DNA from: Chloroflexota bacterium
Lineage (GTDB): Bacteria > Chloroflexota > Anaerolineae > UBA2200
DNA: 64,000 nt
Assembly: GCA_030607875.1 (NCBI GenBank)
Contig: JAUWJD010000006.1
Span: 1 to 64,000, forward strand
Direction: 5' to 3'
The translations under genes were made by a program, and so were the position numbers. This document shows, one piece after another, positions 24,868 to 63,075 of this stretch. Within the stretch, counting starts at the first letter, position 1. Every line of letters begins with the position of its first letter. Under the pieces are notes generated by a model. That model was not told where the DNA came from. It made no database searches and saw only the letters and a program-made list of their open reading frames with translations.

Positions 24868-24905
24868 AGCGAGTGATCATCCCCGACGGGCAGGTGTATT
24901 CTTTC
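24868..24905 (-). repeat. ComM/YifB-derived fragment A1, overlapping the GH13 3' end
   Basis: Minus: GAAAGAATACACCTGCCCGTCGGGGATGATCACTCGCTAC = KEYTCPSGMITRY; compare A2 [13 protein letters not shown]. Confidence 0.78.
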
Positions 24906-27900
24906 GAACCAACCTCAGCAACTCCTCCACTTGATAGCCAGATTCCTCTTCGGCCTGGCGCAATTGCTGGACGACCTCGTAAGAAGCGAGGGCCTCTTCC
25001 CCTACCTCGGCTGCCGGGCGAAACGCAGCCGTATGGATTACTGCCACCAACAGCAGCCACCACAACAACTGCTCAAAGGCTTCGTTGTTGAACCACAGCA
25101 CATCCTGGTAGCGATTGATCTGCAGGAACTGCTGCACATCATCGTCTTTGAGCAAGGTCTCCAGAATTGGGTAGGCTCGCGCCCGACCATCGGGCGCCTC
25201 CGCGGCAAACCAGCGCTGGTGGCTGGTGAGCAGTTTGATCACTCCCACCGCCTGCCAGGCCTTTGACTCGTCCAATCCCAAGTCCTGCAACGCACCAGCG
25301 AGAACCTTCCCCAGCAGCCACTCGTCGATCCAACTGCGGCTTTGTCCCTCAAAGCCCGCCTCCCCAACAATCTTGCCCAGGGAATGGACGGACCACCAAC
25401 CCAAGAGGCAGCCCCAGGTGAACCAATCGGCGTTCAAATCCGCAGAAAGGTATTCTGCAATGGCCTTGTACTCTTTGGACTTGGACCAGGGGGCGCGACT
25501 TTCCAGAAGGGGCAACTGCAACAACGCTTCCAATTCCCGTTGCATCTCCAACGCCAGGGCTGCGTGGTCCGCGGTCGCAGCGGTAAACTGCCCGATCTCT
25601 TGCAGCAGGTGGAGGGTTTTCTGCTCCACTTCCTGCAGAAGGGCCGCGTCCAATCGCTCAGCGGGGTCGGTGAGGCGGGCGTCCATCAGCCGGCGGAACA
25701 TGGCGGCGTTGACCAATTCCATGAACGCTTGATGGATGGGCCGCAAGAAAGTCTCCTTGAGGGCTTGGTCGATGCTCGGCACGCCACGCCCGTCGAGGTA
25801 GGCTGCCAGGTGGGCATAGTGGTGCCACACGTTGTCCTGCACCTGGCGGAAATCGAGAAAGACGTGACGCTTGTAGGCGTCCAACTCGACGTAAAGGCCC
25901 TTTTCATGCAGTTCTCTGTTGCTGCGAATGTATTCCAGCCCGTTGACGTGATCGCGGAAGATGCAGAAATAATCGTCCTGGTTGTGCAGTCCCAGGCCCT
26001 CGCCCAGGCTCTTTTGCACTAGGACGCGTTCGCCGTCGCCTTCGGTCTTTACCGAGTAGGCTGCCGAGGTGCGTATCCAACCCTGCGCGGTGGCGTATTT
26101 GTTGTGATACACTACCAGCGCGCGTTCGTCACCGACGCGGTTGGAATAGGCGAACACGTCTTCGTTGACGTGCCCTTCGGGCGTGTAGAAATCGTACAGC
26201 AAGAAATTGTTCACTTCGGCAAACAGGTACCGATGGTGCAACAGTGGGAAGATCTCCCGCTCATGACGTCGAAGCAGGTCTTGGTCCGGCTGCTCATCCC
26301 AGTAGGCGCGCCGGTATTCCATGCCATACTTCTCGGCAAAGCCTTCGATCTGACCATGGCCGAACATGGGCAATCCGGGCATGGTCATCATCATGGTGCA
26401 GACACCAAAGTACTTGTCGCCTTTGCCAAACTGGGCTACGGCGGTTTCTTCGTCGGGGTTGTTCATGAAATTGACAAAGCGTTTCAGAATTTCGGGGTCG
26501 AATTGCAGCACGTTCTTGATGGTGGTGCGATACTTGGCATTGTCCTCGGCCTTGAGCATGTGCATGAACGCGCTGTTATAGACGCGATGCATGCCCAGCG
26601 TGCGCACAAAGTAACCTTCCATCAGCCAGAAAGCTTCGGCCAGCAGGAGGGTATCGGGCGCTTCTTGCGCCACGCGGTCCACCACCTCGCGCCAGAACTC
26701 CTGGGGCATGGCCGCGTCGAACTGGGCCTTGGTCAACCCGTGCTCGGCCCGCGTGGGGATGTCCCCTCCGGTGCCGGGCTCCGGGAACCACAGGCGCTGG
26801 TAGTGCTTTTTGCTCAGCGTCATGGCCGCGTCAAAGCGGATGATCGGGAAGTTACGCGCCACGTGCAGGATGGTCTGGATCACCGCCTCGCGCACCTCGG
26901 GATTGAGATAGTTCAACTGGGCGGTGTCGTTCCAGGGCATGCTGGTGCCGTCGTTGCCGTGGTAGACGTATTTCTCGCTGCCCGTCCAGCGATCCACCCG
27001 CTTAAAGACCACGGCCGCGTCGCTGCGCGTGTAGTAGTGATCCTCTACAAAGATGCCCACGCGTTCGTCCCAGGAGAGGGCTGGCCCGCCAAAGGTGTGC
27101 GAAGGGTAAGGACTGTGGTCCAGCGAGATGAACCAGTCCGGGTGCTCGATCACCCATCGGCCATCGATGCCCACGTGGTTGGGGACCATATCACCGGCCA
27201 TGCGAATGCCCCGCTGCCAGGCCCGCGCTTTCAAGTCCTGAAAGGCCGCTTCGCCGCCCAGGTCGTCGGCGATTTGATAGTCGTACAGCGAGTAGGCCGA
27301 AGCCACCGCTTCGGGGTTGCCGCACAGTTGCTTGATGCGCTGAGAGGCCTTGCTGCGCTGCCACACGCCAATGAGCCACAAACCGGTAAAGCCCCAGCGG
27401 CCCAGAGTGTCCAGCTCCTCGTCGGGGATCTGATCCAGGCGAGTGATCGACCGCCGGTATTTCTTGGAGAGCTGATCCAGCCACACGTAAGTGCTCTTGG
27501 CCATCAGCACCACGCGGGGCATCCAGTCGCGATCGAGACTGTAGCGCTCTGCCTCCGTCTCCAGCTCAGCAAACTCGTACGGCCTCGCGGGGCCGGGGCC
27601 CATGAAGCGCATCTTCTCCTCTTCGCGGATCAGGTCCAGCCCGCCAAGCAGGCGGTAGAGGTACCGTCCAAGCAGCGCCCCCCATTTCTCGCGGATGTAT
27701 TCCAACTGGCCGGAGAGGGAATGTGGCACCTCAATGGCGGGATCGCGCAGCATGTCCACCAGATGCTGGTCTTTAGGGCCAAAGGTGGGCTGGGTCTCGA
27801 AAAAGTCACCAAGAGCGGCGATGATTTGGCGGTAGGCTGTTTCCTTCTCCAGCGCCGTGTCGTCGAACAACTCCAGGAAAGGTGAAAAGGCCAGGTTCTT

Positions 27901-28386
27901 GTTGGCCAGCCAGAGCATCATCATCTCTTCCAGCACGATCTGGCGATGGGGCACGCCAGCCGTTTCGCCTTCCAGGTAGGCCTCGAGTCCAATCTCGCGC
28001 CGATAGACAGCCAGTGGGGGAAACTCGTCCGCGAATCGGCGCAGGGTTTCGTCCACTGCCTCCTGACCGAATCTCTCCACCAGCCAGTCCATGGCCTGCT
28101 CCATAACCTGGGGGGTCTTCTGCTCGCGGTACAGGCCCACGACATAGTGCAAGATTTCGTCAATCAGCCCCATGGCATTGATCTGGCCAGCCTTGACAGA
28201 TTGCTCGGGGAAGCGAACCAGGTCGCGCTTCTCGTTCATCTTTTTCGCGAACAGCCGCGCGCCGTGAAAGTTGGCCAGGATAACGTTCCCGCTGAGAGAG
28301 AACAGTGCTTGGTCAAATTGGTAGAGATCCCGCGCTTCCCGGGAAACGTGAAACTCCATTGTGACTTGGTCTGTTCGCTGCATCAC
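24877..28386 (-). CDS. Large alpha-amylase family (GH13-like) glycoside hydrolase
   Basis: 1169 aa; GFTGLWLIGVW, MAGDMVPNHVGID, IIRFDAAMTLSKKHY, LLLAEAFWLMEGYF conserved-region motifs. Confidence 0.88.
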   Translation of the reverse strand: MMQRTDQVTMEFHVSREARDLYQFDQALFSLSGNVILANFHGARLFAKKMNEKRDLVRFPEQSVKAGQINAMGLIDEILHYVVGLYREQKTPQVMEQAMDWLVERFGQEAVDETLRRFADEFPPLAVYRREIGLEAYLEGETAGVPHRQIVLEEMMMLWLANKNLAFSPFLELFDDTALEKETAYRQIIAALGDFFETQPTFGPKDQHLVDMLRDPAIEVPHSLSGQLEYIREKWGALLGRYLYRLLGGLDLIREEEKMRFMGPGPARPYEFAELETEAERYSLDRDWMPRVVLMAKSTYVWLDQLSKKYRRSITRLDQIPDEELDTLGRWGFTGLWLIGVWQRSKASQRIKQLCGNPEAVASAYSLYDYQIADDLGGEAAFQDLKARAWQRGIRMAGDMVPNHVGIDGRWVIEHPDWFISLDHSPYPSHTFGGPALSWDERVGIFVEDHYYTRSDAAVVFKRVDRWTGSEKYVYHGNDGTSMPWNDTAQLNYLNPEVREAVIQTILHVARNFPIIRFDAAMTLSKKHYQRLWFPEPGTGGDIPTRAEHGLTKAQFDAAMPQEFWREVVDRVAQEAPDTLLLAEAFWLMEGYFVRTLGMHRVYNSAFMHMLKAEDNAKYRTTIKNVLQFDPEILKRFVNFMNNPDEETAVAQFGKGDKYFGVCTMMMTMPGLPMFGHGQIEGFAEKYGMEYRRAYWDEQPDQDLLRRHEREIFPLLHHRYLFAEVNNFLLYDFYTPEGHVNEDVFAYSNRVGDERALVVYHNKYATAQGWIRTSAAYSVKTEGDGERVLVQKSLGEGLGLHNQDDYFCIFRDHVNGLEYIRSNRELHEKGLYVELDAYKRHVFLDFRQVQDNVWHHYAHLAAYLDGRGVPSIDQALKETFLRPIHQAFMELVNAAMFRRLMDARLTDPAERLDAALLQEVEQKTLHLLQEIGQFTAATADHAALALEMQRELEALLQLPLLESRAPWSKSKEYKAIAEYLSADLNADWFTWGCLLGWWSVHSLGKIVGEAGFEGQSRSWIDEWLLGKVLAGALQDLGLDESKAWQAVGVIKLLTSHQRWFAAEAPDGRARAYPILETLLKDDDVQQFLQINRYQDVLWFNNEAFEQLLWWLLLVAVIHTAAFRPAAEVGEEALASYEVVQQLRQAEEESGYQVEELLRLVRKNTPARRG

Positions 28387-28574
28387 ATTCTCCTCTCCCC
28401 TCGCGTGAATAGAGCGGGATGCCCTTTTTGGGCATATTCCTCAGCAGCCCTGGCGGCATCCGACCAACCAGCGTAGAAGGGATAGCGGCCATCGTGTTCA
28501 GGGGATATTATACACCAGGAAAGCCAGGTGATCGAACCGGCGCCGACCGATGTACTCAGGCAAAGAAAAGTCCG

Positions 28575-28765
28575 ATGAATGGAGTGGATGTCGACCCCAC
28601 AGGGAGGCTTCGTGCTGCGGTCCAGCAGCGGGCCGGGGCCTGTCCTGAACGGAGTGAAGGAACACGCTTGCGGTAGCGGGTGATCATGCTCGGCGAGCAG
28701 GTGCACTCTTTCAACAGGTCGCCGAAGTAGCCGCACGGACAGGGATTCATGGCTGCCACGAGCAT
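28575..28765 (-). repeat. ComM/YifB-derived fragment A2 (best-preserved A-type copy)
   Basis: Minus: [34 protein letters not shown] + insert + GPLLDR + 21-bp insert + (V/I)DIHS. Confidence 0.9.
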
Positions 28766-29015
28766 GAGGTAGGTAGCACATCGCTATTTGACGCATCAGG
28801 GAAAACTGACACGCCGCTCTAGCTGGATCGTCAGATCCGGCTGCTTGAACGGTGGACCTGGCGAGCTGCCAGGGGCGATACGTGCTGCTGTTCGCGCAAT
28901 GCGCGATTTCGCCTGGAAGACTATTGATCATCGAGTCTCGGGGCAAAAAGGGAAAGATCCGGTGTGGTTGTACTCCATCTGCCATCTACCTGTCACCATT
29001 CTGCCGCAAATCTCC

Positions 29016-29044
29016 TTGACCGAACGCGGGATTTCTGCTAACAT
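29016..29044 (+). promoter_or_regulatory. sigma70-like promoter (TTGACC-17-TAACAT)
   Basis: Immediately upstream of the response regulator. Confidence 0.5.
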
Positions 29045-29074
29045 CAGGAGGAGACATTCTGCCAGGAGGAACCG

Positions 29075-29761
29075 ATGTCTGCCAGGATCCTGATCGTGGA
29101 TGACGAGCCAGCCATTGTGGACATGCTGGCCTATAACCTGCGGCGAGCCAACTACCAGGTGATCATCGCCCAGGATGGCGAGGAGGCGCTGACCAAGGCC
29201 CTGCAGGAGCAGCCTGATTTGATCATTCTCGACCTGATGCTGCCCCGGTTGGATGGGCTGGAAGTGTGCCGGGCCTTGCGCCGGAAGCGCGATGTGCCCA
29301 TCATCATGCTCACCGCCCGCGATGCCGAAGTGGACCGGGTGGTAGGCCTGGAGTTGGGGGCCGATGACTACGTGGTCAAGCCCTTCAGTGTGCGCGAACT
29401 GATGGCCCGGGTGAAGAGCGTGCTGCGTCGGACTGCGCCGCGACCGGAGGAGACGGCGCCAGATACGATCCGCGCCGGCGCGTTGACGGTGGATGCTGCC
29501 TGCCACGAGGCCAGATGGCGCGACATCGAACTGGAGCTCACTGCCCTGGAGTTCAATCTGCTGTACACCTTGGCCCGTCACGCCGACCGGGTGTTGAGCC
29601 GGGAACAACTACTGGAGCAAGTATGGGGCTACAGTTATTATGGCGATCTGCGGGCGGTGGATGCTGCCATCAAGCGTCTGCGGGCCAAGCTGCGCCAGAC
29701 CGCGCCTGAAGCTGAAGTCATCGTGACCGTGCGCGGCGTGGGCTACAAGCTAACCGCGTAG
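29075..29761 (+). CDS. OmpR/PhoB-family response regulator
   Basis: ILIVDDEPAIVDMLAYNLRRANYQV...DLIILDLMLPRLDGLEVCRALR; winged-helix C-term. Confidence 0.96.
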   Translation: MSARILIVDDEPAIVDMLAYNLRRANYQVIIAQDGEEALTKALQEQPDLIILDLMLPRLDGLEVCRALRRKRDVPIIMLTARDAEVDRVVGLELGADDYVVKPFSVRELMARVKSVLRRTAPRPEETAPDTIRAGALTVDAACHEARWRDIELELTALEFNLLYTLARHADRVLSREQLLEQVWGYSYYGDLRAVDAAIKRLRAKLRQTAPEAEVIVTVRGVGYKLTA

Positions 29762-29773
29762 GGAGCAAAGCCG

Positions 29774-31321
29774 ATGTTCTCTAGCCCTTTGACTCCGCTC
29801 AGGACCAGTATCCGCACTCGGCTGACCTTCAGCCATCTGGCGGTGATCATCGTGGCCATGAGTCTCTCTGGGCTTCTGTTGCTGTCTCTCCTGGAGCGAT
29901 ACTTTCTACAGGCCATGGAAGACAGTCTCATCGCCCAGGCGCGGATCACGGCTCAGGCCCTCATCCCCGGGGCGAGAACCGAAGGCCCGCCCATTGAGGT
30001 TCCGGCCCCGGCCTTTAACACCCTCCAGCAACAGCAGAGCAACATCTCTCTCCAGACTCAGAATGTCGCCCCACCGGTCGGGGACGTTTCCCTGGGCGAC
30101 CTGGATTTGGCCTATCTTGCCAACGCCTCGCTTCAACTCAGTTCTCAATTGGACACCCGTATCCGTATTCTGGATGCCCTAGGGGTGGTGCTGGTGGATT
30201 CGCGGCAAGAGGAACAGAGCGCAGATCTGCGGGCCGATTCACTGGTAGGCCAGGCGCTGGAGGGGCGATACGCCAGCCGAATTGCTCAGGCTGACCGGGC
30301 GGAGGAGACTGCTATGCATCTGGCCCTGCCGGTGCTGGTCGAGGGCCAGTTGGTGGGAGTGGTCTATCTCAGCCAACCCTTGCGTGACGTGACAGCCGTG
30401 TTGCACGACCTGCGCACGCGGTGGCTGCTGTCCACGGCCGTTGCCCTTCTCCTGTCGGGCGTGGTGGGCTGGTTGCTGTCACGGGCCATCGCCAGCCCGT
30501 TGCGGCAACTGACAGCGGCTGCCGGGGCCGTGGCCGGGGGACAACTCGATCAACAGGTTCCGGTTCGCTCCCGTGATGAGCTGGGCCGCTTGAGTCAGGC
30601 CTTCAACGAGATGACCGCCCGCCTGCGAGCGGCACGCCAGATGCAGGTGGACTTTGTGGCCAACGTATCCCACGAATTGCGCACTCCATTGACAGCCATC
30701 AAGGGGTTGGTGGAAACCCTGCGCGATGGCGCGGTGGACGACCCCCAGGTGCGCAACCGCTTTCTGGAGACTGTGGAGGGCGAAACCGACCGTCTCATCC
30801 GGCTGGTCAACGATCTACTGGTCCTGTCTCGCGCTGACTCTGAGGCGCTCAACCTGCAACGTGATTCGGTAGACCTAGCGCAACTGGTCCGAGCCACAGT
30901 GAGCCGGTTGGCACCTCAGGCCAAGGCGCGGGGGCTGGTCTGGCGAGTGGAGACCAGCCCTGACTCCCTGTTGGTGTGGGCCGATCCTGACCGCATCGAG
31001 CAGGTTCTGGTCAACCTGCTGGACAACGCCATCAAATACTCCCGGCCTGGGGGCACGGTGACAGTCAGCGTGGATGGCGAGCAGGGACAGCCGGTGCGGG
31101 TACAGGTGCAGGACGAGGGTGTCGGCATTCCGGCGCAAGACGTGGCCCGCATCGGCCAGCGGTTCTACCGGGCCGACAAGGCCCGCTCGCGCACTGAGGG
31201 CGGCAGCGGACTGGGCCTGGCCATCGCCCAGGCTCTGGTCCAAGCCCACGGCGGCCAGTTGTGGCTGGAGAGCCAGGAGGGCCAGGGTACCCTCGTAACG
31301 TTCACCCTGCCATCTTCGTAG
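29774..31321 (+). CDS. Sensor histidine kinase (HAMP, HisKA, HATPase)
   Basis: FVANVSHELRTPLTAIKGLVETLRDGA...VNLLDNAIKYS...GGSGLGLAIAQALV. Confidence 0.96.
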   Translation: MFSSPLTPLRTSIRTRLTFSHLAVIIVAMSLSGLLLLSLLERYFLQAMEDSLIAQARITAQALIPGARTEGPPIEVPAPAFNTLQQQQSNISLQTQNVAPPVGDVSLGDLDLAYLANASLQLSSQLDTRIRILDALGVVLVDSRQEEQSADLRADSLVGQALEGRYASRIAQADRAEETAMHLALPVLVEGQLVGVVYLSQPLRDVTAVLHDLRTRWLLSTAVALLLSGVVGWLLSRAIASPLRQLTAAAGAVAGGQLDQQVPVRSRDELGRLSQAFNEMTARLRAARQMQVDFVANVSHELRTPLTAIKGLVETLRDGAVDDPQVRNRFLETVEGETDRLIRLVNDLLVLSRADSEALNLQRDSVDLAQLVRATVSRLAPQAKARGLVWRVETSPDSLLVWADPDRIEQVLVNLLDNAIKYSRPGGTVTVSVDGEQGQPVRVQVQDEGVGIPAQDVARIGQRFYRADKARSRTEGGSGLGLAIAQALVQAHGGQLWLESQEGQGTLVTFTLPSS

Positions 31322-31509
31322 TTATTCTCCCCCATACTCTCATACCCTCTTTCTCCCCTGTGTCCCTTTCGTGCTTCTCATCTGCCCTCAGATTATCATC
31401 CCCTCGTCACACACCTGCCACATAGCCAGGCCACAATGTAAGGGCTTGATGCAAGAGAACGTTTTGCGGCACAACCACACTTGGCTTCGTTCAAAAGGAG
31501 GGACGAACG

Positions 31510-32268
31510 ATGAAAGCAAGAATCGTCAGTATTGTCGGCGTTTCGCTTATCTTGACCTTCGCGCTTTGTGCCTGGACGGGGGAGCAGCCGGTGTCCCATG
31601 AACCTCGTCTCATCACAGTAACCGGAGACGCCAAAGTCCGGGTTGTTCCCGACGAGGTTCTCCTCACCCTGGGCGTGGAAACCTGGGACAAGGATCTTGT
31701 CGTGGCCAAGGACCAGAATGATGCAATCGTCAACAAGGTGCTGGGCCTGGCTGCGGACTATGCCATTGATCCCCAGCATGTCCAAATCGACTATGTCAAT
31801 ATCGAGCCGTGGTATCGTCACGGCACGTATGAGGAACAGGATTTTTTAGGGTTCTTTGTACGCAAAACGATTGTCATCACGCTCAGAGACATCTCCAAGT
31901 TCGAGGATCTGCTGACCGATGTGCTTGGCGTCGGCGTCAACTACGTCCAAGGGATTCAGTTTCGTACTACACAACTGAGGAAGTATCGAGATGAGGCCCG
32001 TGCGCTGGCCATCAAAGCCGCCCGGGAAAAGGCCATCGCTCTGGCCGGGGAGTTGGGCCAAAAGGTGGGTGAACCTCACGTGATCCGCGAAGACCAAGGT
32101 GGCTGGTGGTCCGGCTACGGTGCATGGTGGGGTTCTCGTTGGGGTGCAGCGATGACTCAAAACGTGATTCAGGAACTTGGCGGAGCTTCCTCAGCAACAG
32201 GCACCGTGGCGCCCGGCCAAATCAGTGTCCAGGCCAGGGTCGCGGTAACCTTTCAACTGGAGATCTAG
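31510..32268 (+). CDS. SIMPL-domain (DUF541) secreted protein
   Basis: RLITVTGDAKVRVVPDEVLLTLGVETWDKDL...AREKAIALAGELGQKVGEP. Confidence 0.9.
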   Translation: MKARIVSIVGVSLILTFALCAWTGEQPVSHEPRLITVTGDAKVRVVPDEVLLTLGVETWDKDLVVAKDQNDAIVNKVLGLAADYAIDPQHVQIDYVNIEPWYRHGTYEEQDFLGFFVRKTIVITLRDISKFEDLLTDVLGVGVNYVQGIQFRTTQLRKYRDEARALAIKAAREKAIALAGELGQKVGEPHVIREDQGGWWSGYGAWWGSRWGAAMTQNVIQELGGASSATGTVAPGQISVQARVAVTFQLEI

Positions 32269-32289
32269 TCCTGTATCGTCAAGTTCTAC

Positions 32290-32455
32290 TGCTTCGTGCA
32301 TCAACCGTTCGTGCTCCGGATGTGCTCTGCATGCCCCGTGGGCACCTGCGGGTGGCCGCCAAAAGGTCTCGTCGCCGAAGGTCTTGGCGAAGACAAGGCC
32401 GAAGGCGACAGCCGAAGGGTCCCGCACCGACGGGATGGCTCGACGGGATTGCTAG
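32290..32455 (+). repeat. Interspersed repeat R2, copy 2
   Basis: Inverted match to 5270-5400, with an extra internal segment AAAAGGTCTCGTCGCCGAAGGTCTTGGCGAAGACAAGG. Confidence 0.93.
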
Positions 32456-32549
32456 AGCTCTCTAGCTGGGTTATTGTGTGAAAACGGCCGCTTGAGTTTA
32501 GCGACCTTCGGCGCAGCACTCTGCAAGAGTGGCATAAGGAGGTGTGATC

Positions 32550-34829
32550 ATGCGCAAGGTGATTCTGATTCTGTTGGTGAGTGTGTTGTGGTTCAACGTG
32601 GGCGGTGGACCTGCCCTGGCCGACGGCATGTTCGTGCCCGATGCCCTCAGCCCCGACTACTTGGTCGTGCGTTATCACCACGTCACGGTCCGCATTGAGA
32701 ACGGCCACGCCGTGACGCGAGTGGAACAGGAATTCTACAATCCCTACGACTTCCGGGTGGAGGGGCGCTACCTGTTCCCCGTGCCGCCGGAGGCCATCCT
32801 GTCTCGTTTCCTGGCTGTGGTAGACGGCCAGCGGCAGCAGGTGACCCGCCAGGACGCGGCCACGACTAACGACGCCCTGTACGCTATCGTGGCCCAACGG
32901 CGCGATCCCTCGCTGCTGCAATACGCCGATTGGGAGACCCTGGCCTTTGACCTCAGCCTTCCGCCTGGCGGCTCGCGCCAAATGACCCTGGAGTACGAAG
33001 AAGTGTTGGTGCCCAGCGGCGGATTGTACCGCTATCGCTACGTCCTGAGCACCGAACGCTATTCGTTCCAAGTGCTGGAGGAGGTGTCGCTGGCCGTGGA
33101 TCTTCACTCGTCGTCCGGCCTGGCCAGCCTGTACTCCTCGACCCATGCGGTGACCACCGAGAGGCTGGGGCTAGGCCGGGCGCGGGTAACCTGGGAGGCC
33201 CAATTCATCCGACCTACCGAAGACTTTGAGTTGTTCTTCGCTCCGGCCGAGGATGGCTTTGGAGGTGGCCTACTCACCGGCCAGCGCAACGGCCACGACC
33301 ATTTCCTGTTCCTCTTTTCACCGCAAGTCGAGCCGCTCCGGACCACCTACCTGCCCAAAGACATCGTGTTCGTCATGGACCGCGCGGGCAGCATGGGCGG
33401 CGAGAAGATCGAGCAAGCGCGCTACGGCCTGCACTTTGTCCTGAGCCAACTTGGCGAGGATGACCGGTTTTCCATCATCAGCTTTGATGATCAAATCTCG
33501 GCCTTTGACCAGAGCTTGCAGCCGGTGGACAAACGCACCTTGCAGAGCGCCCATCGCTACGTGGACCGGCTGTCTGCCGGGGGCTGGACGGACCTGGAGG
33601 CAGCTTTGCAGACCGGGCTAGAGGTTCTGGAGCGCAGCGAGGAACGGGAGTCATCCCGGATGGTCGTCTTTCTGACCGACGGCCTGCCCACGGCCGGCAT
33701 CACCGATGGGGAACTCATCGCTCACCTTGTGACCCAGACCAACGCCCGGCTCGCGGCTCGCCTGCACGTCTTTGGCGTGGGCTATGACATCAACACCCAC
33801 CTACTCGACCGCCTGGCCGCCGACAACGGAGGCACGGTAACCTATGTTCAGCCCGACGAGAACCTGGAACTGGCCCTGACCGAGTTCTACGGGAAGATCG
33901 CCCACCCCGTGCTGACCGACGTGCAGGTCGAGTTTGAGGGCCTGGAAGCCAACGCACTCTATCCTGGAGCACTGCCCGACCTGTTCCAGGGCTCCAGCCT
34001 GCTACTGACCGGTCGCTATCGAGCCACAGGCGACACGGCCACTGTGCGGGTGCGCGGCCGGGCCGGGGCCGAAAGGCGTGAGTACGTCTACCACTTTGAC
34101 CTGAACCAGGCCGGCGGTCGCGACTTTGTGCCCCGGCTATGGGCCACCCGGCGGGTGGGTGCGCTTCTGGATCAGGTACGGGTGGAAGGCGAGAGCCAGG
34201 CGCTGGTGGAAGAAATCCGGGAACTGGGTCTGAGCTACGGCCTGGTCACTCCTTACACCACTTTTGTCATCGAAGGCCAGGCCGACGGAGCAGCCTCAGC
34301 GGCCAACATGGCTCTGTATAACTCGGCTGACCTGAACCAGGCCTCGGGCCGGACCACGATCCAGGCCCGCGTCCAGAACCAGGCCTATCAGCAGGCGGCC
34401 CAGGCCAATCTGGCCAGCGGGGCCAACATAGTGCACCAAGGACAGCGCAGCCTGGCCCAGGTGGGTAGCCAGAACGTGGACTTGGCGCTGCTGCAGGGAC
34501 AGAAGCCTCCGTCGGGCCCGATCACCGTCGAGTGGATAAGCCGCAACGTCGGCGTTGACCGCACGGTGGATTTTGGCTCGGAGGAGTATTTTGCCCTGGC
34601 CGAGGATCCGGCTGCCCGGACCTTCCTGCAAAGTGGTCCCAACGTAGTCTTCACTTACCAGGGGCAGGTCATCTCCGTCCAGGATCCAGAACATCAGGGC
34701 GATCAATCCGGCAGCGCGGATGTCGCAGCAACCAGTCAGGCTCCAGCAAATCAGGGCCGTCGTTCAACCAGCTTGGTTCTCCACGCGATAACGATGCTGC
34801 TGGACTTGTTCTTGGGTTTTGTGCCCTGA
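32550..34829 (+). CDS. VIT + von Willebrand A domain secreted protein
   Basis: VRIENGHAVTRVEQEFYNPYDFRVEGRYLFPVPPEA (VIT); DIVFVMDRAGSMGGEKIEQARYGL (VWA MIDAS-like). Confidence 0.93.
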   Translation: MRKVILILLVSVLWFNVGGGPALADGMFVPDALSPDYLVVRYHHVTVRIENGHAVTRVEQEFYNPYDFRVEGRYLFPVPPEAILSRFLAVVDGQRQQVTRQDAATTNDALYAIVAQRRDPSLLQYADWETLAFDLSLPPGGSRQMTLEYEEVLVPSGGLYRYRYVLSTERYSFQVLEEVSLAVDLHSSSGLASLYSSTHAVTTERLGLGRARVTWEAQFIRPTEDFELFFAPAEDGFGGGLLTGQRNGHDHFLFLFSPQVEPLRTTYLPKDIVFVMDRAGSMGGEKIEQARYGLHFVLSQLGEDDRFSIISFDDQISAFDQSLQPVDKRTLQSAHRYVDRLSAGGWTDLEAALQTGLEVLERSEERESSRMVVFLTDGLPTAGITDGELIAHLVTQTNARLAARLHVFGVGYDINTHLLDRLAADNGGTVTYVQPDENLELALTEFYGKIAHPVLTDVQVEFEGLEANALYPGALPDLFQGSSLLLTGRYRATGDTATVRVRGRAGAERREYVYHFDLNQAGGRDFVPRLWATRRVGALLDQVRVEGESQALVEEIRELGLSYGLVTPYTTFVIEGQADGAASAANMALYNSADLNQASGRTTIQARVQNQAYQQAAQANLASGANIVHQGQRSLAQVGSQNVDLALLQGQKPPSGPITVEWISRNVGVDRTVDFGSEEYFALAEDPAARTFLQSGPNVVFTYQGQVISVQDPEHQGDQSGSADVAATSQAPANQGRRSTSLVLHAITMLLDLFLGFVP

Positions 34830-34929
34830 TGCTGCAATGGCGATGTTGCTGGGCTTGGTAGCTGAAGAACCACGTTTTCCTGCAAAGCAGCAAACGGCAG
34901 GCTTGACTGCCACGGCAAACAACATCAGG

Positions 34930-35517: not shown

Positions 35518-35531
35518 CAAGTCGAAGCCGC

Positions 35532-51513: not shown

Positions 51514-51597
51514 TGGTTCCCATCTCTCAAATGAGTCCGTAACTTGGCGGGTTCCCACGTGGCAGGACAACGACTGAGTTGAGGGGCGCGGCGGGCC

Positions 51598-53274: not shown

Positions 53275-53285
53275 ATGGCCAGTCC

Positions 53286-54680: not shown

Positions 54681-54782
54681 ACACGCCCCTTTCGTACCAG
54701 ACAGCGATTGTGGACAGAGCCGCCACCAGACAGACGTCTTACGGCAAGAAGCAAGGTTGGCGGAATGCCTGTGTCTGGCCGC

Positions 54783-55256
54783 TCACTGGATGCTCTTGAA
54801 CGCTTCCAGCAGGGCTTTTCTCTGTTCAGAGTCCGAGTTGATGCCAAGGAAGATCACATCGCCCCTGCTTTCGATGGCCACGTCTTCCGGCGTGAAGGTA
54901 ACGCAAACCAATCTGTTGGGGTCGATGTTCTGCGCCAGCTTGTCTGTGATCTCTTGGACACTGCCTTTGTCAGTGGCCCTGATGATCACCAGAACTCTGG
55001 TGTCCAGGCTGATCATGGGGATTACTGCAACTGCGTCTGCGAACGCCGGATAATCCCTTGAGCCCAGATAGAATTCCTTGGTCTCATCGTCTTCCAGGCC
55101 TTGATACGGACCAAAGCTCTCGACCCCAGCTTCAGCAAAGATCTTGTTGGCAATTTCGGTGGCCGTTCCTGCGGGGGCAGGCTTCTCTCCCGCGCACCCC
55201 GTCAAGATCGCCAGTGAGAAGAGCACAACAAGCAGTAAAGCCGTCTTCTTCATCAT
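54783..55256 (-). CDS. DUF4358-like lipoprotein
   Basis: MMKKTALLLVVLFSLAILTGCAGEKP lipobox; small secreted protein next to AlgI/AlgJ-like genes. Confidence 0.8.
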   Translation of the reverse strand: MMKKTALLLVVLFSLAILTGCAGEKPAPAGTATEIANKIFAEAGVESFGPYQGLEDDETKEFYLGSRDYPAFADAVAVIPMISLDTRVLVIIRATDKGSVQEITDKLAQNIDPNRLVCVTFTPEDVAIESRGDVIFLGINSDSEQRKALLEAFKSIQ

Positions 55257-55401
55257 GTTGACACCTCCGATATCTGTTGCGAGCGTATTGCTACACTGCC
55301 CACGTGCACCGAGCAGAGTGGCTGGGGCCACCTTTCGGTTGCCATAGGCAGGCTCACGGCCTGGTGTTGCTGGTATCTATCTCGAACGCCCCCGGCGTCT
55401 G

Positions 55402-57084
55402 CTAGCGCTGGCAGATCGGCTGGAAGGTGTACCCACGGGCTTGCAGCTGCTGCAGGACGGTCTCCAGCGCAGATACGGTCTGTTCGCGGTCACCGCCCCC
55501 ATCGTGCATCAACACGATTGCTTCAGGGTAGACCTGTTTCAGAATCGTGCTGATGATGGCCTGTGCGCCAGGGCGCTTCCAGTCCAGGGTGTCGATGTTC
55601 CACATGACGACCGAATAGCCTAGCTCTGCCGCGTAAACGCGGGTGAAGGCGTCGGTAGCACCATAGGGAGGGCGCAGATAGGGCGCAGCCCTGTCTCCGA
55701 GGGCTCTTGCGGTCCGTTGCACTTGGTTGTAAAAGTCCTCTTTGCTAATCCCTGCGAGCGAGACGTGGTCGTAGGTGTGGTTGCCAAGGGCATGACCGGC
55801 TTCGTACGCCGCTTCAATCAAGTCTGGAAATCGCTGCACGTTCTGCCCGAGCACAAAGAAGGTCACTTGGGCGTCGTACGTCGACAGCAATTGCAGCATC
55901 TCGCGCGTATAGGGTGGCGTGGGCCCATCATCCAAGGTCAGGTAGACCACCTGTTGGCCTCCTGGCTCTGCGGTCGGGGGTGGCGGGACGGTCGTGGGCA
56001 CGGGCTGCGGTGTCGGAGTGACCAGCGGGGCCGCTGCCTCCACGTTCAAGGTGTACTCTGTTTCCAGACCGATGGCAAAGATGTTGATGGCGTACTCCTG
56101 GGTGGCGGGAATGGCCCCTCTCCACGCCGACACCTCCTCGACAGCGCGCACCAACACATCCAGCTCCTTCAGACCATAGATGGACAGGAACACATCGGCA
56201 TTCGGTGAGGTTACGGTTACCGTTACCGCCTGACCGGCCTGTACCTGCAAGGTGTAGCGGTCCAACCCAAAGGGCCGGCTGCGCCCGCTGTAGCTGGCCG
56301 AGCGTTTGCCTTCCGGGAGGACGATGGCCACGACGTCGGCGGTTGTGGTGTCGTTCACGACATCGTCCGCGTTCAAGGCCCCACTGTGCACCAGTTCCAG
56401 GGTCTGGTCGTGCAGCCGGTAGCGCTGCGCCATTTGCAGTGTGGGTGTGCTGCCGAAAGGTTCTTCTTCGCGGTAGGTCCCGAACACCAGTTCAACCTCG
56501 CTTCTGGTGACGGCCACTTGTTCGATGATGATGCGATCACCCAGAAACACGGGCTCAAGAGGGCGCGGCTCCCCGTGCTCGTTAAGCACTACTGCCAGGT
56601 GGTAGAAGGTGCCTGTGCCGGCGCTGCTATGAATCAGAATCACCACCGCATCTTCCACCTGGTCGGCGTTGAGATCGCCAAAGGCCACGCCGCGGTAGAG
56701 CAGGTAGCGCTCCACGCTGGCAGCGCCCGGTATGTAGGCGTAGGTGAACGCTCCATCCTGCATCGGCAGCAAGCCATCTGGAGGGCCGCCCCAGTTCTTG
56801 GGCAAGATGTAAGTTGCCCCTTTCAACTGCTCCCACGTCAGCCGCGCGACCGTGGGTGTGGGAGCGATGGTGGGGGTGGCCGTCGGCGCTGGACTGGGCG
56901 TGCTGGTTGGAAGCGCCGCCCGGGTGTGGGTGACGGCCGGTACTGCGGTAGGCGTTGCCGCGCGGGCGACCCAGGATGTGTGCGTTGCGGCTGGCAGGCT
57001 GGTCGGCCCGCCGGCAGGCTGGCAGGCAGCCAATAGCAAGACGCTGGCTGACAGAAGCTGTGACAGCAGTTTGGTACGGCTCAT
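55402..57084 (-). CDS. Polysaccharide deacetylase (NodB domain) lipoprotein
   Basis: Lipobox LLAACQP; VVYLTLDDGPTPPYTREMLQLLSTYDAQVTFFVLGQN...ALGNHTYDHVSL...YLRPPYGATD...VLMHDGGGDR. Confidence 0.95.
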   Translation of the reverse strand: MSRTKLLSQLLSASVLLLAACQPAGGPTSLPAATHTSWVARAATPTAVPAVTHTRAALPTSTPSPAPTATPTIAPTPTVARLTWEQLKGATYILPKNWGGPPDGLLPMQDGAFTYAYIPGAASVERYLLYRGVAFGDLNADQVEDAVVILIHSSAGTGTFYHLAVVLNEHGEPRPLEPVFLGDRIIIEQVAVTRSEVELVFGTYREEEPFGSTPTLQMAQRYRLHDQTLELVHSGALNADDVVNDTTTADVVAIVLPEGKRSASYSGRSRPFGLDRYTLQVQAGQAVTVTVTSPNADVFLSIYGLKELDVLVRAVEEVSAWRGAIPATQEYAINIFAIGLETEYTLNVEAAAPLVTPTPQPVPTTVPPPPTAEPGGQQVVYLTLDDGPTPPYTREMLQLLSTYDAQVTFFVLGQNVQRFPDLIEAAYEAGHALGNHTYDHVSLAGISKEDFYNQVQRTARALGDRAAPYLRPPYGATDAFTRVYAAELGYSVVMWNIDTLDWKRPGAQAIISTILKQVYPEAIVLMHDGGGDREQTVSALETVLQQLQARGYTFQPICQR

Positions 57085-57235
57085 GCTTAGCCCCTTCATA
57101 CTCACTGGGATTGGCACGCCTCGGCTGGTATCAGGTAGCACGCAGCAGATGCGACGCCATTATACCCGCGTCGTATCCAAAGTTCAAAGGGTCGCATTCT
57201 GTCATGCAAAATGTCACTGAAGGAGTGTGGTTCTT

Positions 57236-57620
57236 TCAAATGATAGTGTCACTGGGGGAACGATGCCGAATGAAGAGAAGATGACCATCGACGAGCGATA
57301 CAAGTATCTGTGCATCAAGCAAGAGCTGTACAGGAAAGCCAAGCGAAAGGAGCGTAGCCAGTTGTTGGACCAGATGCAGCATGTCATCAAGTTGAACCGC
57401 AAGACCCTGATTCGCCACATGAAAGGCAAGATCGTGCGCAAGCCTCGGCAAAGGCAACGTGGCACGACCTACAGTCACGAAGTTGACGATGCCTTGCGCG
57501 TGATCTCCGAGAGCTTGGACTACATCTGTGCTGAACGCTTGTATCCCGACCTGGTCTCCACGGCCCTTCATCTAGTTGCCCATGGCGAGCTGCACGCCAT
57601 GGTGGGGCAGTCGGCCACCA
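57236..57620 (+). mobile_element. Truncated transposase/integrase remnant
   Basis: MTIDERYKYLCIKQELYRKAKRKERSQLLDQMQHVIKLNRKTLIRHMKGKIVRKPRQRQRGTTYSHEVDDALRVISESLDYICAERLYPDLVSTALHLVAHGEL: N-terminal HTH part only; catalytic region absent. Confidence 0.7.
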
Positions 57621-57764
57621 TCGAGCCGGTGTACTTTCGTGAAAGGCTGCCAGTCGGCCCAGGCGGCAGATTCAGATCCGTGATCCCACTGGTCAAACGG
57701 CAGGACCCGTATCTGCGGTCCGGAATGCCCAGTTCTGACGATGGCGCTTGGACCGATAGGCCCC

Positions 57765-58682
57765 TCAGCGCTGCGCCCTGAGGATCCTTGGCACGGTGAG
57801 GCTCAGTGACTCCCACAGAAACCCCGCCGCATTCGCTGCCCGCCACATGATCAGCAGCGTCGCCAGCAACGGCGCCTGTCGCCAGTGAGCCTGCCGAAGC
57901 AAACGAAGCGCCATGCTGAACGGCTTGAGATAGGAATCGCGTCTCGTGTCCAATCCTCCCCAACGCCGTCTGGCACGAACCTGGCGCAGCCAGAAGGCGC
58001 CACGACCACGGTTGAAGTGTTGTCGGCAGAAGCTCGGAAGGGTGAGGCTATGAGCGTGGAATACCCGAACCTCCCGGGCGTAGATCATGCCGCACCCGTG
58101 CTGGAGCCAGCGCTCGCAGAAATCGCGATCCTCTGCTGCAGCGATTGGAAAAAAGGTCGCGTCAAAGCCGCTGATTGCGTGGAAGCCGTCAGCAGGGACG
58201 GCCAGGTTGTTGCTGGCGAGGAAGTGCGCCTGGCTGCGGTGCGAGTTGTAGTGGGCGAACATGGCGTCCAGGACAAGTTGGCTGGCGACTGCATACGCGT
58301 TGTCGGGAAGCGCATTGATCGTGGGGCCGCCGATGGCGTGATTGGGTGCCGTGGCAAAGCATGCCTCCAGCGTCCTCAGCCAATCCGGCGCAGGGGCACA
58401 GTCGTCGTCGGTAAAGGCCAGGAATCTGCCCCTTGCCTTCGCCGCGCCAGCATTGCGTGCTCCTGCTGGGCCAGCGTGCGGCTGCATGAGCAGAGTCAGC
58501 TCGAGCCAGCTCCGGAAACGAGCAACGACAGCTTGCGGCGATGTCTCGCTCTCATCGTCTACCACGATCACCTCGAACCGGTTGCGCGGATAGTCCAGAC
58601 GGCCGAGCGACTCGAGACAGGCAGCGAGTTGTCTTGCGCGGTTGTAGGTAGGAACAATGATCGAGAACACAGGTTGTGTCAT
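57765..58682 (-). CDS. Glycosyltransferase family 2
   Basis: MTQPVFSIIVPTYNRARQLAACLESLGRLDYPRNRFEVIVVDDESE...GPAGARNAGAAKARGRFLAFTDDDCAP. Confidence 0.95.
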   Translation of the reverse strand: MTQPVFSIIVPTYNRARQLAACLESLGRLDYPRNRFEVIVVDDESETSPQAVVARFRSWLELTLLMQPHAGPAGARNAGAAKARGRFLAFTDDDCAPAPDWLRTLEACFATAPNHAIGGPTINALPDNAYAVASQLVLDAMFAHYNSHRSQAHFLASNNLAVPADGFHAISGFDATFFPIAAAEDRDFCERWLQHGCGMIYAREVRVFHAHSLTLPSFCRQHFNRGRGAFWLRQVRARRRWGGLDTRRDSYLKPFSMALRLLRQAHWRQAPLLATLLIMWRAANAAGFLWESLSLTVPRILRAQR

Positions 58683-58772
58683 CGCAGATGTTCCTGAGGG
58701 CACCGGCGAGCACGCGTCAGGACGCCCGTCACTTTCCCGGCCAAGAACCACCTCGTTCAGCGCCCGAGGACC

Positions 58773-59675
58773 CTACCAGATCCGTCCTCGATTCAAGAAC
58801 AACTGCCTGCACAGGCCGAGGAAGTAGGCAGGCATTAGGAGGGACAGCAGGCAGGTGTGAAACCCCAGCTCAAGCAGCGGGATGTGCAGCCAACGTCGTG
58901 CGCGATACATGCTGCCAACGCCCTGAAGCAGTCTCTTCGCCGCCAGGGCTGCTGCGGCAATCGGTCCCAGCCGAAGCAGTCCCGCACCTGGTGAGGAAGG
59001 GTCCGCAAGTTTTATGGCGATAGAATTGACGGCCATCTCACCGTACCACATTGCAGTCATTTGACCAAGGGAATGCGTCCTGTGGTCGATGCTCAGTGAT
59101 GGCCGGTAGGCTATCGAGATCCCCATCTTGTGCAAGTTGCGAGAGACAAGGATCGCTCCTGCTCCGTCAGAAAGGATTACGTCCGACTCGGGAAGCGCAC
59201 CTTCGAGAAGCCCCGCGCGAATGGCAAAATTGTCGTCCCACAAGAACTCCACTTCACCCTCAGCCTGGCCAACATAGTCACCGTGCACGGAGATGGCGTG
59301 AAAGCGCTCCAGCAGGCGATGCTTCCCGTGATGGCCCGTGCCTGTGAAGACTGGATCACCCTTCGCCCCCTCGTCTTCTACAGCCGCCAGCCAACCTTCA
59401 TCGGCCCGGCAGTGCGCTCCCAGAAAGGCCAGAAGGCTCCCCTGGAAGGTGGGCAGATGCTTGCGCAGAGACGCCACCCACCCAATTGTGTGCTCTTCCC
59501 TCACAAGTCGAAACTGCGGAAACGCGCGGGCCACGATGGTTGCAGTTTGATCTGAAGAAGCATCATCGATGACCACAACCTCATGGCCACTCCCACTGCG
59601 CTGAGTGACCAGTGAACTCAAACACCATGCGATGGTCCCTTGGTCATTCAGTGTGTACACGATGACTGTAATCAT
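58773..59675 (-). CDS. Glycosyltransferase family 2
   Basis: MITVIVYTLNDQGTIAWCLSSLVTQRSGSGHEVVVIDDASSDQTATIVARAFP. Confidence 0.92.
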   Translation of the reverse strand: MITVIVYTLNDQGTIAWCLSSLVTQRSGSGHEVVVIDDASSDQTATIVARAFPQFRLVREEHTIGWVASLRKHLPTFQGSLLAFLGAHCRADEGWLAAVEDEGAKGDPVFTGTGHHGKHRLLERFHAISVHGDYVGQAEGEVEFLWDDNFAIRAGLLEGALPESDVILSDGAGAILVSRNLHKMGISIAYRPSLSIDHRTHSLGQMTAMWYGEMAVNSIAIKLADPSSPGAGLLRLGPIAAAALAAKRLLQGVGSMYRARRWLHIPLLELGFHTCLLSLLMPAYFLGLCRQLFLNRGRIW

Positions 59676-59702
59676 GATCATCCCAACCGAGCTACCAGCT
59701 TG

Positions 59703-60857
59703 TCACAGGTTGTTGTTCAGCATTCGACAGAGTCTGGTGCACCGTCTGCTGTCCCGTCGTATCCTTCGAGCCTGCTCACTCCGCCAAATCTGTCGTGGCT
59801 CGTCCTGCAGAACGTTGCCGACGGGAGGATACCCGTAGCAAACTCGGACATCCCCGAAAGGATCAATGTACATTCTTGAGAGAGTTCCCAGGCAGGGTAG
59901 TCGTCTTATCGCATCTGGATCTTCAGAGTAGAGTGCAAAGTTGGACAGCTGAGAGGGTGGATTGAAGAGCGGACTGCCCCCTTGCTGCAGGCGCAGCAGC
60001 TCGTGAACCTGCTGCCGCAGGACGTCGGTGCTGCGCACCCACCTAGGATTGTGAGCATACCAGGTGGAGGTGGATGGCGGCATGCGCCTTTCCTTGACAA
60101 AGGGGTAGTGCGCTTCCTCTGCGCCCAGCACCTGAAGAATGATACCGGTGAGGCCTTTGTCTTGCACGAACCTGACCAGGGAGGTCAGTTCGCCGCAGTT
60201 CTCTTCCATGACTACCGTGCTCAGACACAGGTCAATCGTCCGAGGCTGAGTGCGCCACGCTTCGATGGCCCGCATGACACGGGCATGGCTGCCCGGCTTG
60301 CCGCGCGTCTCATCATGGATGGATGCGCGCAGACTGTTCAGCGAAACCATGAGTCGATCTACGCCAATGGACTCTAGTTGATTCAGGACCTCGCCGTCGA
60401 GAGACCATCCATTGGTGATGAGCACAATCTCCAGTCCCTGCCGCTTGGCCAGCTCAAGGAACTGCAAGAGGTCCGGGCGCATGAATGGCTCGCCTCCGGT
60501 GACAGATATCTTGCGCAGCAGGGGCACGTCGCGGATTGCCTCAAGGATCGTGCTCCAGTCGTCCAGTTGCAGTTCCCCTCTCGAGGGAGCAGCTTTCCAC
60601 TTGGAGCAGGTGGGACAGCGGAAGTTGCAGCGATCGGTGATGTCGATCTGAATGTGGAAGGGGGGCGGTACCACCCCAAAGCGCAGCATAGCTCGCTTCA
60701 CTGCCTGAGTTGCATCTCTCCGCAAGCTGCTCAGAGACTGTCTGTATCTGCTGGGCAAAGTGGTCTGTGATGACACCAACGTCCTCCACGGAGACGCCGA
60801 TTTCCACACGCGTGGGGTTAAAGATCCGTGATGGTCCTCAGCATAGCCTGGGCCCAT
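59703..60857 (-). CDS. Radical SAM/SPASM-like protein
   Basis: HIQIDITDRCNFRCPTCSKWK (CxxxCxxC), SVTGGEPFMRPDLLQFLELAKRQGLEIVLITNG; C-term CLGTLSRMYIDPFGDVRVCYGYPPVGNVLQD. Confidence 0.93.
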   Translation of the reverse strand: MGPGYAEDHHGSLTPRVWKSASPWRTLVSSQTTLPSRYRQSLSSLRRDATQAVKRAMLRFGVVPPPFHIQIDITDRCNFRCPTCSKWKAAPSRGELQLDDWSTILEAIRDVPLLRKISVTGGEPFMRPDLLQFLELAKRQGLEIVLITNGWSLDGEVLNQLESIGVDRLMVSLNSLRASIHDETRGKPGSHARVMRAIEAWRTQPRTIDLCLSTVVMEENCGELTSLVRFVQDKGLTGIILQVLGAEEAHYPFVKERRMPPSTSTWYAHNPRWVRSTDVLRQQVHELLRLQQGGSPLFNPPSQLSNFALYSEDPDAIRRLPCLGTLSRMYIDPFGDVRVCYGYPPVGNVLQDEPRQIWRSEQARRIRRDSRRCTRLCRMLNNNL

Positions 60858-61134
60858 CCACTGCTGCCGGCATGTATGCCGCGCGGTCGCTTCTGGTGTC
60901 AGGCGCTCGGCTCGGTCAGCTCACCGAGAGCATTTGCTGAGCGCTGAGCCAATGCCTGACGATACCGCAGTAGGCGCGAGTATAAGCAGCCTATCTATCG
61001 ATCCATAATAGGGCCACACCCCAACTAGCACGTCCCAGGGTGCTGACCCAAGCGAAGAGTGAGTGTCCGTTCTTCTGTTGATCATACCTCATCTGATGTC
61101 GGCAGCCAAGCTTCGTTCGGGCTGCTCGCCTGCA

Positions 61135-61440
61135 AGGGCCTTGTTGGCTTACCTCCGCCAAACGATGCATCTGAGTCTCTGGCGCGCCCTCCAGGTCAGC
61201 GATGGTGCACGCCAGCTTCACGCTTCGCGTGCGATGGAAAGCGCGGGCGCTCATGCCCGGTTGCGTCATGGCCGCGCGCAGCCCCGCCGGGCAGATGGCG
61301 AGATGCCTCAGTCCTGTCGTCCCCTCAGCCGAAGGTGTCGTCCTGAGACAGGGCGAGATGGAGCAAGCACAGGCTCTTGCCGGCATCGTCCTGCGGACAG
61401 TGCACGCACACCTCCGCCCGGCCCACACTCGCGCTCCGAC
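61135..61440 (-). repeat. ComM/YifB-derived fragment B6 with nested hairpin insertion
   Basis: Minus: VGRAEVCVHCPQDDAGKSL + insert + RAAMTQPGMSARAFHRTRSVKLACTIADLEGAPETQMHRLAEVSQQ. Confidence 0.91.
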
Positions 61441-61583
61441 CGGGTTTGCGCCGCATGGGCGTCCGATGATAGGCTATGCCGACCTACAGCGCCCGCTGCA
61501 AACTAGTGCAGCAAATCAGACGGATGTGAAAACATAGGCTTCACGCCTGTCTGAGCAACACTACTCCCTTCGGGTACGGCCAA

Positions 61584-62627
61584 CTACTGACCAGCCATTA
61601 TCGTGACGTTGGTCTTGCCCTCTTGGGCGTCGATCAGGATCTGGGCTGCCCGGTCGCCTTTAGCGAAGGACATCATGCCGGGGATCGCGCCTTCGCCCTT
61701 GGTCCAACCTGCGCCTGGCATTTGGGCGTCATAGAAAGCTATGACCTCTTCCACGCTTTTCGTGGTCTTGTAGGTAACGATGCCGAGGACAGCGCTGAGC
61801 TCGGTGGCGCCATCCATGATGGGGATGTCCTCCGGCATGGCTGGCTTCACGCCCTCGGGTGCCTTGATGGTAACAGGTTTGTTGAGGTCGGTGAGGTCAA
61901 AAGCCAGGTCCAGGACCCCCGCTTCACCGCTGCCGATTGCCAGGTTCTCGCCTTCGTAATGTGCCACGTACCTGACCGCGACGCCAAACTCTGGAGACAC
62001 CCATACATCCCCCTTGGCCTTGGCGATGACACCCAGGCCAAGAGTCGGTCCGAGGGAACTCTCATCAAAGATGTAATGGTTAGTGGACACACCGTTGACC
62101 ATCACATTCTTCTGCACCAGCTTCCCCCGGTTCCCAGAAATCACATTAAAGGGATCGCTCAGGAAGCGGTTGGCCTCGAAGATGTCCGCTTCACCGGAGA
62201 GCACGGCAAACCATCCTGAACCCGAGTCCATGTAGACGTCTTTCCCGATCTGGATGATCTCCCACTTGCCCTCTTCACCAGCACCAGTGCTGGTCCACAG
62301 CAAGTGATGCGCTGGCGGCTGCCGTACAAACTCTTCCACCACGTCCCAGGAGCCGGTGTCCTTCTGATCAGCCTTGGTGCTCTCCCATTTGAAGATGTAG
62401 TGCATGCGGTAGCTGCTCAAACTGGAGAGATCGGACGCCTGATCAAAGTTGTACTCCTCAGCTACTACTGGGGGCTGGGCAGCAGCCTTTGTGTTCGTCG
62501 GACGGGGAACGGCTGAGGTGCTGGTTGCCGCTAGAGGTCGTGTAGCAGTGGGTTTCGCGGCACCGCCCCCGCAGCCTGTCAACACCAAGGCCGTAATCAA
62601 TACCATTGTGCCAAAACCTTTTCTCAT
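61584..62627 (-). CDS. LolA/LppX-like lipoprotein
   Basis: Lipobox LTGCGG; SSYRMHYIFKWESTKADQKDTGSWDVVEEFVRQPPAHHLLW...KDVYMDSGSGWFAV. Confidence 0.85.
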   Translation of the reverse strand: MRKGFGTMVLITALVLTGCGGGAAKPTATRPLAATSTSAVPRPTNTKAAAQPPVVAEEYNFDQASDLSSLSSYRMHYIFKWESTKADQKDTGSWDVVEEFVRQPPAHHLLWTSTGAGEEGKWEIIQIGKDVYMDSGSGWFAVLSGEADIFEANRFLSDPFNVISGNRGKLVQKNVMVNGVSTNHYIFDESSLGPTLGLGVIAKAKGDVWVSPEFGVAVRYVAHYEGENLAIGSGEAGVLDLAFDLTDLNKPVTIKAPEGVKPAMPEDIPIMDGATELSAVLGIVTYKTTKSVEEVIAFYDAQMPGAGWTKGEGAIPGMMSFAKGDRAAQILIDAQEGKTNVTIMAGQ

Positions 62628-62954
62628 AGTTCATATCCTCCTCATGCTTCTTATTTGAGGACGAGTTTACCCAAGAATCCACAATTGTGCTAATTGCTCG
62701 TGAGGTTCTCTACCGATCCAGCGGCAGCTCGCTAGCGGTTTCAGCACGATCACTGAGCCTTTGGGTCGACTGGACGCCCGGCAGTCAGAGCCGTGAAGGG
62801 AAGCAGTCCCCGTGCCACCCCAGTGCGCGGCGGGTACAGAATCGTCTCGGCCGCCCCCTCCGCCCCGCTCCGCCTTGCTTTGGGGTTCCGTCCCGGCACT
62901 TCCCTTCGGGGATACGCCTCCCGTTACTGTGAAGCGCTTCTGAATCAGCGGCGA

Positions 62955-63075
62955 TCAGAGCTGACGGCGAGGCCTGTATTGAATAGCTTCGGCTAGATGA
63001 CGCGTCTGGATCTCTGCCGCACCTTCCAGGTTGACGATGGTGCGGGCCAGCTTCACGCTTCGCAGCCTCGCCGAA
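62955..63075 (-). repeat. ComM/YifB-derived fragment B7
   Basis: Minus: VKLARTIVNLEGAAEIQTRHLAEAIQYRPRRQL*. Confidence 0.9.

Follow-up and report, generated by a model that had tools for sequence, protein, structure and literature searches.

Displaced comM 3' ends downstream of an intact comM gene: a likely tandem array of captured DNA blocks in an Anaerolineae genome

The window analyzed here is the whole 64,000-nucleotide (nt) stretch presented above, at the start of contig C33 (124,075 bp) from a Chloroflexota bacterium whose genome (G000) is in 69 contigs and 84% complete. It carries a row of broken 3' ends of comM, the gene of the ComM/YifB-type ATPase, a DNA-uptake helicase, and an intact comM lies further along the same contig. 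We consider it likely that foreign DNA blocks accreted in tandem at this gene and make up the 62 kb downstream of it, each block restoring the comM 3' end. In the proposed mechanism, foreign blocks would have entered at comM one after another, presumably from circular forms, each carrying a copy of the comM 3' end of ~160 codons. The incoming 3' end would join the resident 5' part and leave comM intact; the old 3' end, now separated from comM by the whole block, would then decay. Repeated insertion beside an intact comM would produce a row of dead tails, all downstream and all in the comM orientation. Related families show a fixed exchange point in comM at the NPCPCG codon, and at least one more elsewhere in the gene.

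At all 12 places named in a preliminary description of this DNA, sequence derived from comM was detected on the minus strand, with E-values far from chance. Ten of the fragments were recovered by tblastn or blastn (best E 4e-44 inside the window, in a blastn search with the intact gene); the two faintest surfaced through their similarity to other fragments, that at 24868 aligning with the 28.7-kb fragment (82.5% over 40 nt) and that at 48288 with another one (78% over 50 nt; E 8e-6 each). An additional piece was located at 37181-37322. Several fragments exceed the cut-off for Mg_chelatase_C (PF13335) and so belong to the ComM/YifB family, and none of the tails in the window is intact. The proposal that the fragments are non-coding, share one orientation, and stem from a single source gene was borne out. 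An intact comM was located at C33:92427-90871, on the same minus strand and 27 kb outside the window, with an uninterrupted open reading frame (ORF) of 518 aa.

Past the window, further comM fragments, all minus, occur at C33 67555-67728, 74620-75015, 81226-81541, and 88119-88292 (blastn). All fragments on C33 thus lie within ~66 kb of comM rather than dispersed over the genome, and none was found on the far side of comM up to the other end of the contig (92-124 kb). The whole-genome search added only two weak pieces on contig C15 and one weak match on C41. The C15 pieces (G000:C15:16136-18714; L037:8136-10714) are both on one strand relative to each other; the array may extend further, or it may have been rearranged. 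On C33 the fragments fill the 62 kb between comM and an amylase-type gene, and only the faintest (24866-24905) lies beyond that gene. The same interval measures 3.3 kb in G005 and ~5 kb in G002, which belong to the same family. A biotin carboxylase-like gene directly follows comM in G005 and G003 (ORF list), so the gene order of the family has changed in other ways too.

Recurrence, fixed junction, and tail divergence in relatives

The nearest named comM genes place the organism with Anaerolineae of the Chloroflexota. Among 396 Anaerolineae genomes searched, 338 had a match to the ComM C-terminal domain. More than one match was present in ~55 of these 338, some due to contig breaks, compared with extra copies of the RuvB C-terminal domain (RuvB_C) in 2 of 140 genomes. 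Wherever a fragment shares a contig with comM it lies downstream and on the same strand, except in G206, G329, and G269. The relatives repeat the layout of the window genome, with an intact target gene at one end and displaced 3' ends of the same orientation downstream. The clearest arrays are those of G242 (~15 pieces over 65 kb) and of the single-contig genome G350, and one DEAD-box gene closes the arrays of both G242 (65 kb) and G262 (16 kb). Outside Chloroflexota, one downstream fragment each was found at loci L099, L069, and L089; that of L099, from an Ignavibacteriae genome, is a same-strand comM tail at L099:7823-8010. An unusual arrangement occurs in G269, where two near full-length comM genes lie ~2.8 kb apart in opposite orientation (L150, G269:C1:348001-366000).

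Comparison of the tails revealed a fixed junction, which is the proline codon of NPCPCG (comM nt ~1047-1048). Three tails of G350 and those of G017 and G013 begin precisely there; in G242 the start is no more than 4 bases from this junction in five of six tails, and in G230 within a few bases. The tails of all five genomes end at the stop codon or just past it. Directly upstream of the junction the bases are not comM and contain a conserved ~11-bp motif, ATTGTGnnnAY, as seen in the pre-junction sequences of G350 (TTCAATTGTGTACAC), G017 (ACATTGTGTACAT), G206 (ACATTGTGAGAAT), L049 (AGATTGTGAGTAT), and G242 (TATTGAACTACAC). A scan of the 396 genomes with ATTGTGNNNAYCCNTGYCCNTGYGG, allowing up to two mismatches, returned ~70 sites versus <20 for the reversed pattern. 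Sites followed by a comM tail occur in G388, G294, G058, G291, G335, G352, G032, G305, G326, G230, and G350; among the sites fetched none has comM upstream, and nearly every verified tail begins at query residue 350. Tails share the NPCPCG start in at least 10 families; the motif is conserved across about 10, and the cargo directly beside it differs. Two other left ends were seen in few cases, one near FLDELPEF (G255, G329, and perhaps G378) and a hairpin-bearing one ~25 nt further in (three times in G262, and in G032). Group II introns and other known RNA elements at the junctions were rejected, as neither the window nor eight array loci gave an Rfam match.

The fixed exchange point beside the motif suggests that recombination is site-specific and that its enzyme is encoded outside the blocks. 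Blocks beside comM in the relatives look foreign: they often consist of one gene or operon, mostly co-directional with comM, and their guanine-plus-cytosine content is often below that of their surroundings. Their contents, which include toxin-antitoxin pairs, comprise Phd/PIN (G230), PIN toxins (G388, G340, L089), HicAB (G004), and DUF433/DUF5615 (G006), and G283 carries nucleotidyltransferase and NTase-HepT pairs. In G013 the main gene between comM and the displaced tail encodes a SIR2-Argonaute fusion of 1050 aa (L028:4582-7734; PADLOC pAgo). STAND or related ATPases occur in G119 and G262, and a G017 protein has weak Cap4-nuclease and AAA matches. Larger blocks, of up to 20-38 kb, contain transporters and metabolic operons. 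A phage origin of the tails was rejected, since no viral contig encodes one; an origin in phages or plasmids was likewise rejected for the matches in phage and plasmid collections, which look like bacterial chromosome sequence, one of them checked directly.

Divergence between displaced and resident tails carries the signature of purifying selection. The ratio of nonsynonymous to synonymous substitution rates (dN/dS) between displaced and resident tails was 0.08, 0.08, and 0.10 in G350, 0.04-0.08 in G242, 0.11 in G230, 0.08 in G017, 0.10 in G032, and 0.24 in G013. The corresponding dS was 0.5-1.4, and comparisons of intact tails between genera yield similar values. In the window genome, pooling gave a dN/dS of 0.13 (dS 0.68, 588 codons), a lower bound because blastn favors better-preserved stretches; the intact tails of its relatives gave 0.06-0.07. 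Because the intact gene adds to any excess of change at third codon positions, that excess did not by itself count as proof. As the divergence falls mainly at synonymous sites, the tails functioned as comM 3' ends before their decay set in. By these sequence comparisons, the displaced tails diverged mostly within working genes of separate lineages, and insertion would swap one tail for another. The intact comM of G350 is itself a mosaic, its head nearest to G279 (81 vs 74%) and its tail nearest to G148 (82 vs 75%), a gain matched by none of 300 shuffles. The replacement end is thus a functional foreign sequence, as indicated by the dN/dS of 0.04-0.24 and by this mosaic gene.

Weighing the explanations

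The main rival is homologous recombination during transformation, which may also act alongside site-specific insertion. Here no special enzyme would be required: blocks flanked by tails would enter by natural transformation and recombine between comM tails through RecA, perhaps with ComM itself, and the fixed junction would be inherited from one founding event. Several results weigh against site-specific accretion, and some of them fit this rival. A search of the array contigs in 24 genomes gave neither a tyrosine nor a serine recombinase (PF00589, PF00239), so that no island there encodes one and the enzyme would have to act in trans or have been lost. The breakpoint of the G350 mosaic, at nt ~880-1023 (one interval 894-930), precedes the junction by ~25-170 nt, and two G350 tails are chimeric: their last ~300 nt are 97-100% identical, their first ~180 nt 55-88%. 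These two features indicate that homologous exchange also occurs, including inside tails. Among 64 comM genes, head and tail had different nearest neighbors equally often with arrays (13 of 24) and without (21 of 40); the head-tail correlation in the same set was 0.53 in array genomes versus 0.67 (p 0.004), a difference confounded by relatedness. In the window genome, finally, the left ends do not lie at the NPCPCG junction and a motif scan found no conserved motif. The fixed exchange point with its element-end motif was thus seen in relatives and not in the decayed tails of the window genome, several of which also share non-comM inserts, so the mechanism there is inferred from the relatives. 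We nevertheless regard homologous exchange as the sole cause as rather unlikely, because it should keep cargo linked to the junction, yet the motif is conserved in ~10 families while the adjacent cargo varies; tails that are 72-89% identical are, moreover, poor substrates for RecA. The link to recombination, offered as speculation in the preliminary description, stands as a connection with recombination in general, and the role of ComM in transformation may matter.

That description had also proposed that the tail of a housekeeping gene seeded an interspersed repeat family, and here we come to a different conclusion. A comM fragment that became an interspersed repeat or tandem duplicate, with copies drifting as pseudogenes among resident genes, would agree with the inserts that window copies, such as those at 28.7 and 75 kb, have in common at matching positions (RKR^, LDR^, HR^). 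However, the copies keep to a single locus, the 62-kb stretch that follows comM, and decay after duplication should bring dN/dS toward 0.5-1 instead of the 0.04-0.24 observed. By eye, a ~32-nt insert is the same in the copies at 28.7 and 75 kb despite differences in the flanking comM sequence, which makes the inserts look more recent than the divergence of the tails. The same layout and fixed junctions across the class likewise point to insertion events at comM and not to a spreading repeat, which we judge improbable. Still harder to sustain is the idea that the tails are expressed stand-alone ComM C-terminal domain proteins kept by selection. The nearest tails of G350, G242, G230, and G013 do keep their frames open for ~125-165 codons, with low dN/dS, but the junction of most tails offers no start codon, many contain stops, frameshifts, or large internal deletions, and the window holds no intact one; we consider this explanation very improbable.

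Features of the window

The outer neighbor of the array is an alpha-amylase-type gene (24877..28386, minus, 1169 aa; Pfam PF00128, synteny), with the faint comM fragment (KEYTCPSGMITRY; 24866..24905, minus) at the end of its ORF. The interior of the array within the window (28774..64000; Pfam, synteny) has cargo genes between the tails and runs on to the intact comM. All the tails listed here are on the minus strand. The one at 28560..28773 covers comM nt ~1019-1127 (84% over 109 nt) and an insert-bearing continuation (87% over 190 nt to the 75-kb fragment). It is followed by nt 1026-1129 at 34962..35064 (80% identity, E 4e-19) and by a tail at 35142..35503 that runs from codon ~460 to 84 nt beyond the stop (76%, E 4e-44). 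A compound tail at 36748..37322 (codons ~398-486) is broken by inserts into three blastn pieces (best E 1e-18). Codons ~485-513 are found at 38901..38985 (78%, E 1e-12; PF13335), and the SGPLLDR region at 42317..42395, with inserts as in the 28.7-kb copy (87% over 79 nt to that copy). Codons ~471-511 with one insert occupy 47316..47469 (blastn E 4e-12 and 1e-6), and the faint fragment at 48284..48333 represents the SGPLLNR region. The remaining tails are at 51624..51821 (codons ~445-490; 86% over 108 nt, E 2e-30), 61126..61425 (codons ~445-515 with a ~80-nt insert; blastn E 9e-21), and 62961..63101 (codons ~480-513; 85% over 52 nt, E 7e-10), each with a PF13335 match. Cargo in the window is ordinary by Pfam: a histidine kinase, VWA, DegV, a peptidyl-prolyl isomerase, ornithine cyclodeaminase, and pyridoxal phosphate enzymes, together with a large glycosidase, an MBOAT/DHHW pair, glycosyltransferases, and a radical SAM protein, among others.

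Gaps in the fragments first quoted from this DNA correspond to compound fragments, in which comM sequence is interrupted by short non-comM inserts. Such inserts occupy common sites in several window tails, which lie within LLRA and behind RKR, LDR, and HR. Short REP-like sequences, for example TTCCTTCACTCCGTTCAGGACAGGCC and GCGAAGC, are present at 28560-28773, 42317-42395, 35142-35503, and 61126-61425 and at C33 74620-75015, and comparable inserts were seen at matching comM positions in G004 and G027. They appear to be small repeats that were added later and in a targeted manner; copying between dead tails may be an alternative origin. Recurrent fragment starts at comM nt 1334-1346 and 1389-1400 were rejected as junctions; they probably reflect alignments that break off at inserts or where a linker varies. 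A ~110-bp repeat is dispersed in both orientations (window 5272-5381 and 32298-32453; C33 74572-74615; just upstream of comM), and its copy at C33 74.6 kb directly adjoins a comM tail. Of two other repeats, one is direct and exact (62 bp, period 54 bp) and opens the contig (window 1-116); the other consists of tandem ~204-bp units (~67% alike; window 18337-19421) inside a 969-aa ORF (18091-21000).

Comparison with known systems and implications

Staphylococcal cassette chromosome (SCC) elements in rlmH and the e14 element in icd supply a replacement gene end, and their target stays functional. The comM blocks are alike in the proposed delivery of a replacement end to the target gene, but SCC and e14 encode their own recombinase, and arrays of many long displaced tails are not typical of them. 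Integron arrays are directional rows of small, toxin-antitoxin-rich, recombinase-free cassettes with a repeated site between blocks. The comM arrays share the direction, the toxin-antitoxin-rich content, the repeated inter-block site, and the recombinase-free blocks; they differ in having no adjacent integrase gene (no PF00589 match was found near comM), in a repeated site that is the 3' end of a host gene, and in blocks that reach 20-38 kb. We therefore entertain, only tentatively, an integron-like cassette platform across Anaerolineae, whose site would be the 3' third of comM, renewed with each capture by a recombinase in trans or by transformation.

The nearest match is provided by the ssrA islands of Dehalococcoides, which lie in tandem within ~100 kb downstream of the essential gene ssrA, many without integration genes, and include over a dozen direct repeats of the 3' end with a 15-bp non-ssrA motif beside each (PMC3146451). 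That study also compared SCC with the ssrA islands. Tandem downstream accretion, 3'-end repeats in one orientation, a non-target motif directly upstream of the repeats, and islands lacking integration genes are common to both systems. In contrast, the target of the comM array is a protein gene, its repeat is ~480 nt of coding sequence versus 20 bp, the array contigs have no serine recombinase match, and the cargo often consists of single toxin-antitoxin or defense genes. In Acinetobacter, AbaR/Tn6022-type resistance islands insert in comM (PMC7508600, PMC8787482, PMC11472951), which makes comM the insertion locus there as well; AbaR, however, is a transposon that interrupts comM, whereas the comM of the window genome is uninterrupted and would have had its end replaced. 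No description of comM tail arrays was found in the literature searched, and most subscription journals lay outside that search.

By analogy, the comM arrays would resemble accreting, 3'-end-restoring islands of the ssrA, SCC, and e14 type, but with comM as the target and an unusually long coding tail. A large uncultured clade would then add comM to the genes that offer their ends as attachment sites. Insertion at comM in Acinetobacter destroys the gene and lowers transformability (PMC7508600), whereas here insertion would leave comM working. The row of former gene ends would be a natural record of successive captures, and the junction motif could serve as a search handle for defense and toxin-antitoxin cassettes.

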